Assembly (NCBI GenBank): GCA_016722945.1
Contig: JAEQMT010000066.1
Location: forward strand, 124,001-188,000
Origin: Desulfofustis sp. PB-SRB1
GTDB lineage: Bacteria; Desulfobacterota; Desulfobulbia; Desulfobulbales; Desulfocapsaceae
Direction of reading: 5' to 3'
DNA: 64,000 bases
The position numbers and the translations under genes were made by a program. Below the pieces are notes generated by a model that had not been told where the DNA came from, did not search any database, and saw only the letters and a program-made list of their open reading frames with translations. Below are positions 9,504 to 62,056 of the stretch, piece by piece. The first letter of the stretch is position 1. Every line of letters begins with the position of its first letter.

Positions 9504-9541
9504 CTTATTCAATTTTGCGTTCAAGATGCGCTTAATATATA
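9504..9541 (+). repeat. IS630 left terminal inverted repeat
   Basis: 38-bp end with ATTTTGCGTTCAAGATG and TTAATATATA; the transposase stop codon lies within it. Confidence 0.75.
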
Positions 9542-10575
9542 TTTCCAACCAGTCAAAGACTGGAGTGCTTCTGGCGAGTCTTCCATACGCCACAGGCCAA
9601 GCGCCAGTTGTGCGATGACAGCATCAAGACAATCAAATAGTTTGTTGGCAAATTCTTTCTCGCGTAACTCATCCCAGAGCCGCTCGGCCGGGTTTAACTC
9701 AGGTGAATACGGTGGTAAACGAACCAGCGCCATGTTAGCGGGGAGTTCCAGATCCTTAGAGCGATGCGAGGGAGCACCATCGAATACCATGATAATGAAT
9801 TCCCGAGGATACTTCCGTGCTATTTGATCAAGAAAAACATTCATGGTCTCCGTCTTCATTGATGAGCCCACCATCCAATCAAGGCTGCCATCCGCCGGTG
9901 TTACCCCGGCATAGGCGTATACGTATTCCCTGACCAAAGATGATGCAACCAATGGCCGCATGGGAAAGGGCACCCAGCAGCGACGAGGGTCGTTTATCCT
10001 CCCAAACCGAGCCTCGTCCTGGAACATTACGCGTACCGGTAAGTCTGTGGTGTTTTTCCCCGCTGCTTCCGCCACTGTTTGGCAGAATTTTTTTTAAAGT
10101 CGTCTTGCGCTGCCGCATCACGTTTTGGATGGTAGGTGTCGGGTGCAATCTTGCGCCAACCATGCCGGGCGAGTAACCGATATACGGTAGAAGGAGCTAT
10201 GGTACGCCCACATGCTTGTATAAGTGCTTTATGGATCGGTGGCACAATCAACACGCCGCCTTTTTCCGCTTCGGCCACCCATGGTTCAAGAAACGCTTTT
10301 TCTTCTTCAACCGTCATGAGTTGTCGGCGTCTGCCACCCCACTTTCTTTTTTGCTCGGCAGTGCCGTCGACTCGTTGGCGAATCTCTTTTTGCATCCTGA
10401 GAATTGTCGCGATACTCACGCCAAGTGATTCACCCGTGCCGGCATTGGTGAGTCCATGTTGCTTGGGGAGCAAGACGCTGAGTCCGGTACGGAGCTCTCT
10501 GGCGGTCTTTGCGCGCTTAACAAGGCGCATTGCTTCTTGCTCCATTTCCGTGGTAATTTGCGCTGGTCGTGCCAT
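9521..10575 (-). CDS. IS630-family transposase, produced by -1 frameshift
   Basis: Two overlapping frames encode the DNA-binding and catalytic parts. The first (10575 to 10027, 182 residues) has a helix-turn-helix (GESLGVSIATILRMQKEI) and a winged domain (APSTVYRLLARHGWRKI). The second (to 9521) has the DDE catalytic core: MFQDEARFGR, FDGAPSHRSK and LPPYSPELNPAERLWDEL. Reading through a run of eight A with a -1 slip joins DFKK to KFCQTVAEAAG and gives one protein of about 350 residues, the normal IS630 length. Without slippage the first frame ends in TAA at 10027. The stop lies inside the left inverted repeat. Confidence 0.88.
10088..10095 (-). other. programmed -1 ribosomal frameshift site (A8 run)
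   Basis: Eight consecutive T on the plus strand read as A8 in the transposase mRNA. The zero frame reads TTT AAA AAA AAT. The -1 frame is open from inside the run through the whole DDE domain, and it is closed by TAA immediately upstream, so slippage must occur in the run. A sequencing miscount of the homopolymer is the alternative. Confidence 0.7.
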
Positions 10576-19397: not shown

Positions 19398-19537
19398 TGG
19401 GAGCCTTGAAAAATGAGAATTTTCGTTCAAGATCAAGGCGCGAGGAAAATTTTACCACAGGCCGGATTGATATTGTCAGGATAAAATTTTTAGAGCAACG
19501 ATGCGGTTGGGCGAAAAGGCCATTTTTCAAGGTTCCC
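19398..19537 (+). repeat. MITE-like repeat copy A, with terminal inverted repeats and TTAT target duplication
   Basis: A 140-bp element. Its left end GGGAGCCTTGAAAAATG and right end CATTTTTCAAGGTTCCC are inverted copies with one mismatch over 17 bp. TTAT flanks it directly on both sides (19394-19397 and 19538-19541). Related copies lie at 58561-58712 (reverse orientation) and 61916-62056. The conserved inner blocks are GAATTTTCGTTCAAG and GAGCAACG. No transposase is inside, so it would be a non-autonomous element. Confidence 0.85.
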
Positions 19538-35265: not shown

Positions 35266-35346
35266 CGTATTTTCTGTTTGCTGAGCGAATCAGTGTCGGC
35301 ATCATGTGCCGGCATCTTACCCAGCCATCATACCACGAAGATATAC

Positions 35347-36399
35347 ATGACCATTTCGACCAATCTGCTTGATCGTCTGGACAGCGGCGCGGTGATCGTT
35401 GCCGAAGGGTTTCTCTTTGAGCTTGAGCGGCGCGGCTATGTCAGCGCCGGCTCGTACGTTCCGGAGGTGGCGCTGGAATATCCGGATGTGCTGGAGAACC
35501 TGCATCGTGATTTTCAGCGGGCCGGCTCCGATGTGGCCCTCGCCTTCACCTATAACGGACATCGGGAAAAAATGCGGGTGATCGGCAAGGAAGAACTGCT
35601 CGAACCCCTCAACCGGGCCGCCCTGCGCATTGCCAGAAAGGTGGCGGATGCACGGGTCGGCGATATGATGGCGGGCAATATCTCCAATACCAATATCTGG
35701 GCCCCGGATGATCCAGACAAACAGCGCGAAGTGCGTGCCATGTTTGGTGAGATGGTGGGCTGGGCAATGGAGGAAGGGGCCGATTTTCTGGTGGGCGAAA
35801 CCTTTTACTTCGCAGGTGAGGCCTATGCCGCCTTGGAGGTGATGAGAGATGCGGACGTGCCGGTAGTGGTGACCCTGGCGCCGATGGCCGGCAACACCAT
35901 GATGGATGGGGTGGGAATCGTTGAAACCTGCAGGGAACTGGAAGCACGGGGGGCCGACGTGGTGGGGATGAATTGCTTTCGCGGCCCCGCCACCATGCTG
36001 CCCTATCTTGCCGAAATTCGCGCCGCGCTAAGCTGCCCGGTGGCCGCCCTGCCGGTGCCGTTTCGCACCCACGAAAAAGAGCCGACCATCTTCAACCTCT
36101 CCGACAACAACCGGTGCAGCTGCCCGTCACCGCACGGTCGGCCCTTCCCCACCGCGCTGGATCCGATGCTGTGCAACCGCTATGAGATTCGTGCCTTTGC
36201 CGAGCAGGCCTGGGAAATGGATATCCGCTACCTGGGCGTCTGCTGCGGCGCCGCCCCCATCCATATTCGCGAAGTGGCCGAGGCGGTGGGCCGCACACCC
36301 GAGGCCAGCCGCTTTTCCGAGACCATGCAAAATCACTTCATGTACGGCGACAACGAGCGCATCCCGGATCATATCAAGGCACTGGGAGAGCAGGCGTAA
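35347..36399 (+). CDS. homocysteine S-methyltransferase family protein (BHMT-like)
   Basis: A 350-residue zinc thiol methyltransferase domain protein; the family moves methyl groups from betaine, S-methylmethionine or similar donors to homocysteine. Zinc ligand Cys are visible in GADVVGMNCFRG and YLGVCCGAAP. The ATG at 35347 (MTISTNLLDRL) is chosen over an open-frame extension to 35278. The last 38 codons plus stop are repeated at 37517-37634 after the vapBC pair. The methyl donor cannot be told from sequence. Confidence 0.88.
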   Translation: MTISTNLLDRLDSGAVIVAEGFLFELERRGYVSAGSYVPEVALEYPDVLENLHRDFQRAGSDVALAFTYNGHREKMRVIGKEELLEPLNRAALRIARKVADARVGDMMAGNISNTNIWAPDDPDKQREVRAMFGEMVGWAMEEGADFLVGETFYFAGEAYAALEVMRDADVPVVVTLAPMAGNTMMDGVGIVETCRELEARGADVVGMNCFRGPATMLPYLAEIRAALSCPVAALPVPFRTHEKEPTIFNLSDNNRCSCPSPHGRPFPTALDPMLCNRYEIRAFAEQAWEMDIRYLGVCCGAAPIHIREVAEAVGRTPEASRFSETMQNHFMYGDNERIPDHIKALGEQA

Positions 36400-36400
36400 T
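36283..36400 (+). repeat. 118-bp direct repeat, copy 1 (3' end of the methyltransferase gene)
   Basis: Matches 37517-37634 with an offset of 1,234 bp and about seven mismatches by hand count. This copy is part of the intact gene. Confidence 0.9.
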
Positions 36401-36620
36401 CCGTATGGCAAACGTGTACTATGGCCTTGGCCTTTTTGCCCACCCTCTTTGTTGCTCATATAACAGGTCCAATAGCTCGCTTCGCCCCTCAGTGTCGTTA
36501 TATGCTGTTTATATGTATCGAGTCAATTGCCGAAGGTTTCGACAAATCGCTCAATATGGGTGGATGGTCTCATTCTGATTACTGAACAAAAAATGTTGGT
36601 TCTTGCCTTAGCCCAGCAAA

Positions 36621-36651
36621 GGTATTACCATTTAGTAACTTTAATAATACC
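36621..36651 (+). promoter_or_regulatory. candidate VapB operator: inverted repeat GGTATTA / TAATACC
   Basis: Seven-base perfect inverted arms at 36621-36627 and 36645-36651, 17 bases apart, end 12 bp before the vapB ATG and overlap its probable promoter. Ribbon-helix-helix antitoxins usually repress their own operon from such sites. Confidence 0.45.
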
Positions 36652-36663
36652 AATGAGGTGGTC

Positions 36664-36903
36664 ATGCACACACTTACATTGAAAGTACCGGAATTGTTGC
36701 ATACACGGCTCAACAGGTATGCAAAACAAAAGGGCTTAAGTAAATCTGAAATCGTCCGACTCGCACTGCAAAATTATTTTTCACAAGAAGCGGGGGTCCG
36801 TGGTGCATCTATTTATGATCTCGCTCAAGACCTGGCGGGTAGTGTCGAAGCCCCAGCCGATCTTTCCGCGAACAAAGCCTATTTAGAGGGTTACGGAGCG
36901 TGA
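36664..36903 (+). CDS. vapB: VapB-type ribbon-helix-helix antitoxin
   Basis: A 79-residue CopG/RHH antitoxin: an N-terminal strand HTLTLKVPELLHTRL and the helix pair KQKGLSKSEIVRLALQNYF form the DNA-binding fold. The C-terminal part (DLAQDLAGSVEAPADLS) is of the kind that wraps the toxin. GAGG at 36655-36658 precedes the ATG at 36664. The toxin gene starts within its stop codon (GTGA). The pair lies between two copies of a methyltransferase 3' end, indicating insertion. Confidence 0.88.
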   Translation: MHTLTLKVPELLHTRLNRYAKQKGLSKSEIVRLALQNYFSQEAGVRGASIYDLAQDLAGSVEAPADLSANKAYLEGYGA

Positions 36904-37322
36904 ACCGCAAGCGGGTCATTGTCGACACCGGGCCCTTGGTCGCATTTATCAACAAAAGTGACGCCCACCATCAGTGGGCCAAAACTCAATTTTCCCTTAT
37001 TACTCCACCATTCATCTCGTGCGAATCAGTCATATCTGAAACATGTTTTTTACTCCGTAAGAGCGCCAACGGACCAACTCGCATTGTGCAATTAATCGAA
37101 CGAGAACTAATCGTTTTTCCCTTTGATCCGCAGGCGGAAGCATCATCAATACGAAAACTTATGGAAAAGTATCGCACTGTGCCGATGTCGTTTGCCGACG
37201 CATGTCTGGTCAGACTTTCGGAGCAAATATCTGAAAGCGTTATCTGTACGATTGATCGTGATTTTGCCATCTACCGCAAACACAGACGGGACGTCATCCC
37301 ATTAATTATACCGGAAGATTGA
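36900..37322 (+). CDS. vapC: VapC-type PIN-domain ribonuclease toxin
   Basis: A 140-residue PIN-domain RNase. Acidic active-site residues are visible: Asp9 in VIVDTGPLVAF, Glu in VISETCFLL, Asp in SFADACLVRL and Asp in TIDRDF. It starts with GTG at 36900 overlapping the vapB TGA. VapC toxins cleave tRNA or rRNA and are held in check by VapB. The base composition of the module appears lower in GC than its neighbours, consistent with acquisition by transfer. Confidence 0.92.
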   Translation: MNRKRVIVDTGPLVAFINKSDAHHQWAKTQFSLITPPFISCESVISETCFLLRKSANGPTRIVQLIERELIVFPFDPQAEASSIRKLMEKYRTVPMSFADACLVRLSEQISESVICTIDRDFAIYRKHRRDVIPLIIPED

Positions 37323-37516
37323 ACTGAGCCCAACTTTTCAGATTTTACTCCATTTGCGGAGCTATATCATGTTAGGATTAAGATTAGCCGAAAAATATAA
37401 TAAGTAAATATGATGAATTCTGAGGTGGTTTCTGTTTGTTGGACAGTGTAGCGGCAGAGTTAAGGTGAAATCCTCTCATTTTTATTATGCCGTATTGACG
37501 CTCACCAGAGAGCCAT

Positions 37517-37634
37517 GCGGTGGGCCGCACCCCCGAGGCCAGTCGCTTTTCCGAGACCATGCACAACCACTTCATGTACGGCGACAACGAGCGCATCCCG
37601 GATCATATCAAGGCCCTGGGAGAACAGGCATAAT
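37517..37634 (+). pseudogene. 118-bp duplicated 3' fragment of the homocysteine methyltransferase gene (direct repeat copy 2)
   Basis: The last 38 codons and stop of the methyltransferase gene at 35347-36399 recur here with no upstream part. Of about seven differences, six are synonymous third-position changes and one changes Gln to His. The fragment's stop touches the stop of the oppositely oriented restriction-modification gene. It is not expected to be expressed. Confidence 0.85.
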
Positions 37635-40600
37635 TAGCTGCCGGCCTCTTCAACAATATGGATTTCTTTTTCAGTTAGACCATAGAGTTCGTATACCAAA
37701 CGGTCGATGCGGCTATCGGCGGCACCGATGGCACGGGATAGAACGGCTTTATCATGTCGGGTCTTGACCACGGCAAAACGTTGTTGCAGGTCGAGCATGT
37801 GTTCGACGTTTTCCTCTATATCATTATGCTGAATAGACCCAAAACTGCTTTTCAATGAAAGAGCTTTTATGGGTGTCAGTTTTACGTACTGATCAAAAAA
37901 TCGTAAGTATCCCCCACGATATACGGACAAAACGTTTTTATAATATGAATGAATGAGCGAGGAATTGAGGACTCCCAAAAGGTAAAATTCAGAGTTAGGA
38001 ATCATATAGGCTGTGTTTGCAAAATATTTTCCGCCCTCTCTATCTAACGAAAAACTTCCTCGTTCCGATATGTCAGGATAGAGTATTTTCGGCTTTTCAA
38101 ATTCACGGTAGTAGTCGCATGCGCGTAATTCCCACCAATAATCACCCTTGTCATAGCGGAGCGTGGCCTTCTCTTCAAACTGCGCAAGGTGATCGGCTAT
38201 GGCCGGATACTGCTCTTTGAGCCACTGCCATTGTCGTTCATGCGGGCATCGGACAGTGGTAAACCCCCGAGGAAAAAGAATCAAATACTTAACGGTTGAC
38301 AGGGCTTGATACCGTTTTATATCACGCCCGGCCAGAAACGGTTTGATAATCTGCGCACTTGCCGGGTCTTGCGTGATCAGGTGATCCCTCATCTGCTCGC
38401 TGATCACGAAGGCTTCGTTTAAGCCGGTTTTAATACCGTAATAAATTTTCCCTCCGACATATTCACTGAGGGGAATTCCCACCTCATATAGTTTGTCCAG
38501 CAAATCCTGTTTATCCCGGCTCACCAGCGCCCAGCCCGCGTCGCTGAGCGATCCTTGGCGGACGTCATACCGGTGATTGTTGATATGATCCGCAAGGTTT
38601 TGAACGGGCAAACGCATCAGCCTTGCGGCGGCAAAGGTTGGCCGTGGCGGCCGCTTTCCAACCACCAGAATACAGGGGTAGGTCGTGGCTTGGGAAAATA
38701 CCGGCAGATCACCAAAATCGATTATCTGTTCAATACAGTGCGTCTTGAGCCAGCGTCTCAACGCGGTACCGTAGTTGGCGCGGAGCCACTTGTTGGCGAC
38801 AATATAGGAAAAGAGACCACCTTCTTTCAAAAGAGAGATACCTTTTTCAACGAAATAGACGTACAGATCCGCCATGCCGTGATAGCTCGCATAGTGCGTC
38901 TTAAAATAGTGTTTAGCCTCTTTTAACCCTTCTTGCCTGACATAGGGTGGATTTCCGATTACCACATCGAAACCGCCCTCCTCCATTATTGAGCTGAATT
39001 CTGCTTCCCAATCGAATACGTTGAGCCGGTGAAGCACTTCTTCATCAGCAAAGAAAGACCGTTGATGGTCATAAAAATCATTGCTAATCAGTGAGTTACC
39101 GCATTTGATGTTGCCGCTCAGATCAGGCAGAACCCGTTGCTGAAAAAGACGGAGCTGGGTGCCGATGGTTTGCTCATCTTCGCCCTCAAGAACCTTCAAC
39201 AAGAGTGACAACTTGGTGACTTCCACCGCCTGATAATCTCTATCAACCCCAAAAATATTATTGAGCAATATCCGCTTGCGCTCCTGGGTAGTTAGGCGCC
39301 AATGCCCGCCCATACCCTGATAAAGGGCCGGGTTTTTGCCGCTCGCCCATTTTTCGGGGTCATCTTCCAGGTAGCTTTCAAGATGCCAGTCAAGAAGAAA
39401 CTGGTAGGCACCCAACAAAAACGATCCTGAACCGCAGGCAGCGTCTACGATTTTTAATCGACTCACCGCTCCGCGCGGGCCCGGTTTTTTGCCGCGAACT
39501 AACCGACCAACGGTGTTATCTACGATATAGTCAACGATGTAGCCGGGGGTATAGTAGACGCCGCCGGCTTTTCGAACTTCAGGTTTTTCCTCTATTTTTG
39601 CTTGATGTGTGGCGGTGAGACGGATGACCTTCCCCAGAAAACGCTCATAGACCTGTCCGAGTATATCAGCGGGAAGAACGCTGAACTCGTATGGACTATC
39701 CGGATAATAGAGGTTCTTGACAACATCCTTGATGACCTTGTCGTCAATTTTAAGATGGGGGGTAAAATTATCATGATCAGGCCGATGTTTCTCCGCCCTG
39801 AAGTGAAAGAGACCGGAATTGTACTTGTCATCGGCCTGTCGGAACAGATGGAGCAATCGCTCATAACACTGTACGCCATTGCCCAGGCTGAGCAAGCGTC
39901 CATACTCTTCGATACCGCGATCCTCGCAAATGCGCAGAAACACAATTCGATCAATCGTGCGCTGAACGCCGATATTGAGTTCGCGCTGGGTAAGAGACGG
40001 GTTGCGTAGGCTGACATTTCTGGCAAGCAGTTCACGCCAACGCTCTATTTCCCGCAAAAATTCATCATCAACTTCGGTGGTGCCCTTTTTGGTTTTATTT
40101 GACTCAACATATTTATCAAAAGACCCTTTCAGGACAGCCTCACGAGAAAAAACAGCGGCCAATTCCTCCCAGCGAGTAAGATAGTCGGAAAAAGTGAGAT
40201 AGAGAATGCGGCCATGCGAAACCTTATCGGTTTTTGTCGGCCTGACCCGGCAATCGTAGACGGCGAACTCTTCAAAATCGGTGAGAATGCTCAGCGGTAA
40301 TTTGGCGCTCCAGCCGTAGCGCCGTAACTGGAAGGCAGGATGAAAGTCTTCTTTTATATTGACCGCCGGCTTTTTGGCCTCAAGAAAAAACTTACGGGTA
40401 CCGCCGATTCTGAAACAGTAGTCGGGCGCCTTGGTGAAACCGCCGATTTTAATGGCATCTTCATGAATAACGTCTTTATATGCCTCGGCATATCCCTTTT
40501 TATTGGCAACATCCCAGCCCAGTTCTTAAAAAAGCGGATCAATAAACTCACGCCTCACCTGGGTTTCATTGTATTTCCCACTCTTATAAGCCGAGACATT

Positions 40601-40648
40601 ACAGCCGAAGGTTTCAACGAGACGTAGTACTCTGTGCGGGGCTTTCAT
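37634..40648 (-). pseudogene. type IIG-like restriction-modification enzyme, interrupted by an in-frame stop
   Basis: The full frame from ATG 40648 would give 1,004 residues but codon 41 (40528-40526) is TAA, where family context suggests Lys. The N-terminal part after the stop, residues 42-162, carries a PD-(D/E)xK nuclease motif: Asp76 in KAPDYCF and Glu90-x-Lys92 in FFLEAKKP. From about residue 163 (a TTG at 40162) an uninterrupted 842 residues encode an N6-adenine methylase: DAACGSGSFLLG (motif I), VVIGNPPYVRQEG (motif IV), and a TaqI-like specificity domain at the C-terminus. Its ATG overlaps the upstream gene's TGA. The methylase may still be made. Confidence 0.82.
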
Positions 40649-58560: not shown

Positions 58561-58712
58561 GGATACTTAAAGGAACTTTGCAAAATAGCCTTTTCGCCCA
58601 GTCTCAACGTTGCTCAAAAACTTTCATCCTGGCAATATCGGTCATACGCCGCCTGAGGTAAGATGTTCCCGGCGCCTCGACCTTGAACGAAAATTCTTAC
58701 TTTTCTAGCTCC
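58561..58712 (-). repeat. MITE-like repeat copy B (reverse orientation)
   Basis: On the minus strand this reads in parallel with copies at 19398 and 61916: GAATTTTCGTTCAAGGTCG, then CAGGATGAAAGTTTTTGAGC, ACTGGGCGAAAAGGCTATTT and GCAAAGTTCCTTTAAGTAT. The ends are more degenerate than in copy A. It fills much of the 412-bp gap between icd and the ketosynthase gene; nothing else is seen there. Confidence 0.82.
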
Positions 58713-58868
58713 CCATTGGATGTGCATGAAAATTTTATGTTTTCCAAACCTGAACGGTGAGAATAACTTGCTTTTCTCACTGATATGTCATAGAGGTGTT
58801 GGATTTTGAACGATCAGCCTGTCTGATCCACCGCTATCCACTATGTATACACCTTATCTGCATTCTCA

Positions 58869-61910: not shown

Positions 61911-61915
61911 ATAGG

Positions 61916-62056
61916 CGAATTTTGAAAAACGAGGATTTTCGTTCAAAACCGAAGCGCGAGGAACATGGTACCGCAACCATCTCACAGATTTTGCCTGGAA
62001 AATATTTTTTTGAGCAACGCTGAGATTGGCCGAATAGAGTATTATACAAAGTTCCC
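61916..62056 (+). repeat. MITE-like repeat copy C
   Basis: Same orientation as copy A, with GATTTTCGTTCAAAACCGAA, GCGAGGAACATGGTACCGCA, TTTTTTTGAGCAACGCTGAG and ACAAAGTTCCCATAAGTATT. The ends are only partly inverted. It occupies nearly all of the 169-bp gap between the two CrtI-like genes and its right end lies just before the second gene's leader. Confidence 0.82.

Follow-up and report, generated by a model that had tools for sequence, protein, structure and literature searches.

A duplicated methyltransferase gene end around a vapBC pair in Desulfofustis sp. PB-SRB1, a probable scar of one-sided homologous recombination

The duplicated gene end and the genes around it

The stretch of Desulfofustis sp. 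PB-SRB1 DNA analysed here (the window, 64 kb in length) contains a complete gene of the homocysteine S-methyltransferase family, which is followed by a vapBC-like gene pair, a second copy of the methyltransferase gene end and, on the opposite strand, a type IIG restriction gene (Table 1). An earlier note on this DNA had claimed that the last 38 codons and the stop of the methyltransferase gene recur downstream with vapBC in between, and this was confirmed by a repeat search, which reported a direct repeat of 118 nt with 94% identity (36283-36400 and 37517-37634; spacing 1234) and no other direct repeat of 50 nt or more across the window. Read in the methyltransferase frame, the repeat comprises residues 313-350 and the TAA stop, with identity extending from the GCG codon of residue 313 to one base beyond the stop, and its coding part amounts to 117 nt. 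A search of the whole 4.69 Mb genome gave no third match at E ≤ 0.001. The upstream edge of copy 2 is abrupt (37516/37517), the sequences that follow the stops of the two copies are unrelated, and the stop codon of the restriction gene (37634-37636, opposite strand) abuts copy 2. The duplication around vapBC is a real feature of this DNA. An inverted repeat that lies around the direct repeats (36259-36280 and 37642-37663, 82%) falls inside the coding sequence of both genes and is taken as chance.

Table 1. Features of the locus, with positions in the window
Feature	Position	Strand	Basis
Homocysteine S-methyltransferase family gene, complete, 350 aa	35347..36399	+	Pfam PF02574, E 1.9e-37
Copy 1 of the duplicated gene end (codons for residues 313-350 plus stop), within the complete gene	36283..36399	+	Repeat search, codon alignment
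Remnant (31 nt) of a dispersed MITE-like repeat, between copy 1 and vapB	36428..36458	+	BLAST within the genome, best E 8.7e-5
vapB-like antitoxin gene, ribbon-helix-helix, CopG type (marginal)	36664..36903	+	PF01402 exactly at cut-off, 20.5 bits
vapC-like PIN-domain toxin gene, 140 aa	36900..37322	+	PF01850, E 1.1e-9, 39.4 bits (cut-off 23.6)
A+T-rich spacer, 38% G+C, ending abruptly at copy 2	37323..37516	.	Composition, own-genome search
Copy 2, consisting of the gene end only	37517..37633	+	Repeat search, codon alignment
Type IIG restriction enzyme-methyltransferase gene, readable part, 842 aa	37634..40162	-	PADLOC REase_MTase_IIG, E 6e-159
Upstream frame of the restriction gene, EAKKP-containing stretch with one in-frame stop	40163..40648	-	ORF reading

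The start of the vapC-like gene (36900) overlaps the end of the vapB-like gene directly upstream (36903) by 4 bases. With a PIN-domain toxin and an overlapping antitoxin both present, 36664-37322 is predicted to encode a VapBC type II toxin-antitoxin pair, in which the antitoxin assignment is marginal because its RHH_1 score lies exactly at the cut-off; for neither gene was there an NCBIfam model above cut-off or a PADLOC model. Relatives of VapC occur in 7 of 92 other genomes of the family, in viral contigs (two relatives, 42-43%) and in plasmids (42 records, the best at 50%), and none was found in phages at E 1e-5. At the DNA level, a comparison of 36200-37700 with plasmids gave a single match of 53 bases, and an Rfam scan of 36200-37800 returned nothing up to E 1.

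The MITE-like repeat whose remnant lies in the spacer after copy 1 is about 140 bp long, and at least 40 matches to it at E below 1e-25 were obtained in the genome (40 of 166 candidates scored). The alignment of this remnant to the MITE consensus beats 500 of 500 mononucleotide shuffles, and nhmmer alone gives E 0.23. In relatives, a copy of the MITE-like repeat was found in one of 117 loci (1.59 Mb in all), which belongs to another genus of the family (L197). The remnant makes it likely that the left spacer once resided in this lineage or a related one, and it argues against a very distant donor. Elsewhere in the window, the MITE-like repeat is present in three copies that measure about 140 bp and have terminal inverted repeats (19399-19537, 58571-58714 and 61915-62056). 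The window also contains an IS630-family transposase gene (9521-10575, minus strand) that is read in two overlapping frames, one part scoring above and one below the family cut-off. The right spacer has no match below E 0.8 in its own genome, the methyltransferase gene included, other than to itself. An insertion of vapBC into a MITE was considered because of the remnant in the left spacer, but it was not accepted, since the right spacer resembles the MITE only weakly (P 0.048, 500 mononucleotide shuffles, either strand).

The match of the restriction gene to the REase_MTase_IIG profile spans positions 170-1003 of 1011, and Eco57I and TaqI_C domains were found. Its readable ORF starts at a TTG, and the frame runs on upstream to an ATG that overlaps the stop of the neighbouring gene for a 129-aa protein (p129). 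The methylase and TaqI_C parts lie in the readable ORF, and a nuclease-like part, with the sequence EAKKP that we take to be a nuclease motif, lies upstream behind the in-frame stop. The restriction gene may be broken, or the in-frame stop may be a sequencing error.

Substitution pattern between the two copies

The two copies differ at seven sites (four transitions and three transversions), all seven of which are third codon positions. In agreement with an earlier hand count, the codon alignment gives six of the seven differences as synonymous, and where many nonsynonymous changes had been named as speaking against the reading proposed at that time, a single one was found, Q328H; position 328 is variable, homologs having E, Q, S, A, R, H, K or other residues there. 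The codon-level alignment of homologs has 83 rows, with codon counts that are approximate and with one row (L031) that probably derives from the same contig as another (L004). For the comparison of identities 80 homologs were used, L004-L006 being left out. Between the two copies dS is about 0.26 (range 0.11-0.58) and dN is 0.012.

If the synonymous share of random mutations is taken as 21-27%, the probability of at least six synonymous changes in seven is 0.0005-0.002 where every change is neutral, and 0.009-0.026, varying with the assumed transition bias, where one copy is free to change and the other accepts silent changes only. For seven of seven changes at third positions the latter model gives a probability of 0.004. 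The expectation of the earlier note that a neutral duplicate should not show a silent bias is thus upheld under the model with one free copy. Because such a bias is improbable for a decaying duplicate, allelic divergence is favoured over decay in place, and the copies would have diverged as parts of working genes, a reading for which the statistics are thin since there are only seven differences. The silent-site divergence of the scar would then provide a rough measure of the distance between the two alleles.

A simple tandem duplication in which sequence was later deleted or inserted and copy 2 decayed neutrally would fit the observation that, among the sequences compared, the copies are nearest to each other, with 94% identity as against at most 80% for the 80 homologs. 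However, neither the third-position and synonymous bias nor the unrelated sequence after the two stops agrees with this course of events, which we hold to be quite improbable. Given this sampling, the clustering of the two copies, which the earlier note had named as a refuting outcome, tells neither for nor against the reading of that note. Polarising the seven sites with the same 80 homologs placed 22 nearer to copy 1 and 32 nearer to copy 2, with 26 ties, and gave no clear direction of change.

The main rival, which appears doubtful to us, is an insertion of vapBC or of the restriction gene that generated a target duplication of about 117 bp, the copies then diverging and copy 1 possibly being replaced later by another allele. 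A direct repeat of the order of 100 bp, and thus of the right size, does surround the selfish gene pair, no integrase lies between the copies and a restriction gene adjoins them; restriction systems are described, in the available portions of the literature, as inserting with long and variable duplications, of the order of 100 bp according to a review (PMC3874152; PMC3031569). Copies that arise in this way start out identical, with one of them free to decay, so that a later allelic replacement is needed to account for the silent-site bias, and the restriction gene lies outside the repeats rather than between them.

Composition and chromosomal setting of the block

Relative to a baseline of 38 hand-picked genes of the window (mean G+C 53.7%, sd 1.9), the methyltransferase gene has a G+C content of 61.1% (z +3.9), which exceeds that of all 38. 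The restriction gene (z -2.9), vapB (z -3.5) and vapC (46.1%, z -4.0) are the poorest in G+C among the compared genes as the methyltransferase gene is the richest, G+C being a less certain measure for vapB and vapC because both are short. Three composition classes thus adjoin, the methyltransferase gene being high and vapBC and the restriction gene low.

The distribution of the methyltransferase is patchy. Orthologs with 64-74% identity were found in 3 of 57 other genomes (G016, G018 and G001, the last with one internal stop), and the remaining matches in those 57 genomes are at 32% or less. A protein search in plasmids returned 84 records, all of them under 60%. The neighbours of the methyltransferase gene differ in each of five relatives, as judged from their unannotated ORFs. 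A wider survey of methyltransferase loci covered the best 80 of 297 relatives, among which records very near the present genome may be absent. Eight proteins were searched against 106 loci, 80 of them named, with flanks of at most 8 kb and often shorter, and within the 80 named loci vapB, vapC, the restriction gene and the flanking genes had no match at E 1e-3.

The block occupies the slot between a dCMP deaminase gene and p129, which in this genome extends from 35266 to 40644 and holds the methyltransferase gene, vapBC, the second 3' end and the restriction gene. For comparison, 16 loci of the family were hand-chosen from the 76 of 93 genomes that match the neighbouring lipoprotein-like gene. 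Both the dCMP deaminase gene and p129 were found in 15 of the 16 loci, and they lie no more than 1,333 bp apart in 14; in L198 the distance is about 4.3 kb with another gene in between, and in L201 the dCMP deaminase gene was not found in the fetched locus. In 12 of the 16 loci the slot is taken by an ORF of thiamine-phosphate kinase type, referred to here as thiL-like (two of the 12 were profile-checked as thiL and the other ten are so called from their sequences), and it is nearly empty in L205 and L206, with gaps of 42 and 27 bp. The thiL gene of the present genome is located on another contig (C1:61367-62341, 283.7 bits). Both outer flanks of the block agree with the gene order of the relatives, and the block within the slot looks accessory and composite.

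An assembly artefact that joined two strain variants is highly improbable as the source of this arrangement: the draft genome consists of 71 contigs and has 3.83% contamination, and strain variants can be mis-joined, but there is no N run at the junction, the spacer that precedes it is not repeated in the genome and the flanks fit the order seen in relatives.

Owing to its odd G+C content, and because the block occupies the usual place of the thiL-like gene, the methyltransferase gene itself was probably acquired. A native methyltransferase gene joined by a foreign vapBC was considered and rejected, since the methyltransferase gene is compositionally odd and sits in a slot that is thiL-like in 12 of the 16 loci. 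The earlier note had regarded the vapBC-bearing piece as the foreign part; this is not supported, as a deviant G+C content is found in the methyltransferase and restriction genes as well as in vapBC, and the whole block lies where most of the compared loci have a thiL-like gene. The gene end beside the restriction gene may therefore just as well have been the newcomer.

Origin of the duplication and comparison with known systems

With a probability of roughly 0.6, the locus represents the scar left when two alleles of a mobile methyltransferase gene recombined by homology on one side only. The arrangement itself, the third-position bias and the accessory character of the slot are shown by the data; we infer the allelic origin of the two ends, and with it a mechanism and a number of steps that would run as follows. 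One methyltransferase allele would have been followed by vapBC and the other by the type IIG restriction gene, and the strands would have met within the shared methyltransferase gene. The other side would have been joined without homology, either from a linear fragment by homology-facilitated illegitimate recombination or, alternatively, from a circle with a truncated gene end that integrated by single crossover. The outcome, reached either in this genome or before the block arrived, would be a full gene with the 3' end of one allele, vapBC behind it and, displaced beyond vapBC, the 117 nt that once ended the other allele. On one side of the joined DNA the two 117-nt gene ends provide the homology, and on the other side the junction is non-homologous, formed by the right spacer with its lack of other genome matches. 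The part of the earlier note that invoked joining by homologous recombination therefore fits on one side of the insert, whereas the foreign status that it assigned to the vapBC piece is not supported.

Neither a donor allele nor an empty site was found in 257 genomes of the order, with at most two candidates scored in each and with no second genome of the same genus among the genomes compared. Outside its own genome, this DNA search detected only the gene end in three relatives (73-76%) and, in G154 as a fourth relative, about 42 bases from this end. Against one-sided recombination between alleles it must be said that the pattern would be no different if an ordinary duplication had come first and copy 1 had then been replaced by another allele.

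In E. coli, according to the accessible part of one study, 14 sequenced clones carried duplications of 109-950 bp, which were ascribed to single-crossover integration of a circle whose gene end was shortened, true illegitimate integration being the rarer outcome in those experiments (PMC3240628). Illegitimate joining is likewise described as rare in extracts of a second study, which explains the Vibrio type VI effector-immunity arrays by such joining, the effector 3' end being displaced and the immunity genes retained (PMC5361080). The rarity of illegitimate integration in E. coli and elsewhere counts against that variant of the mechanism.

The locus might also be what is left of a site-specific integrative element whose attachment site was a replacement 3' end for the target gene and whose integrase was lost or acts from elsewhere, or else an integron cassette, and both of these origins are improbable. 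Site-specific elements have a left copy that completes the reading frame of the target, as the left copy does here. An integrase between the repeats is excluded, in line with the earlier note, because the longest ORF wholly within these 1.2 kb is the 140-aa vapC and is too short to encode one; furthermore, the repeats are only 94% identical. An integron integrase gene is located at C36:1702-2637 (365 bits, above the family cut-off; L138, L146), and copy 1 is followed by perfect 8-nt attC-like arms (36455-36515), which were attained in 17 of 2000 mononucleotide shuffles of this spacer in a test made after the arms had been noticed. The arm region, however, folds no better than shuffled sequence (z -0.66 and -0.65 on the two strands), and because the site in the window has no significant fold, the integron cassette stays unproven. 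An attC-like hairpin is located on contig C4 (6845-6907; L147).

The event is most likely one of a known kind and not a new mobile system. It is very improbable that the locus represents a minimal mobile unit in which a toxin-antitoxin pair is accompanied by a working substitute for the 3' end of a widespread metabolic gene; if it did, insertion via host recombination would never break the target and would need no integrase. The general view is unchanged by the finding, which would serve as a clear illustration of the way in which toxin-antitoxin pairs and other selfish genes could become established in chromosomes with no integrase involved, an accessory gene acting as the landing pad and the displaced gene end being left as a scar.

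Like other chromosomal vapBC type II loci, the pair described here combines a ribbon-helix-helix antitoxin that overlaps a PIN toxin with a low G+C content, and it differs from them in nothing unusual of its own. With the long target duplications of restriction-modification systems, as far as the literature at hand describes them, the locus has in common a direct repeat of about 100 bp that flanks a selfish unit without an integrase; in contrast to these, the repeats enclose vapBC and not the restriction gene, and most differences between the copies are silent. Homology-facilitated illegitimate recombination and single crossover in Streptococcus, Acinetobacter, Pseudomonas stutzeri and E. coli resemble the present case in their one-sided homology with foreign DNA at the other end, in the portion of the source available (PMC3240628), whereas the event here is deduced from one genome. 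In the Vibrio type VI clusters and Rhs loci, too, a module enters by one-sided homology and the old 3' end is pushed downstream, the anchor gene there being the toxin itself, with ends that differ in kind, according to the excerpts of that work (PMC5361080). In the locus described here, by contrast, the anchor is a metabolic gene, and both ends encode nearly the same peptide.
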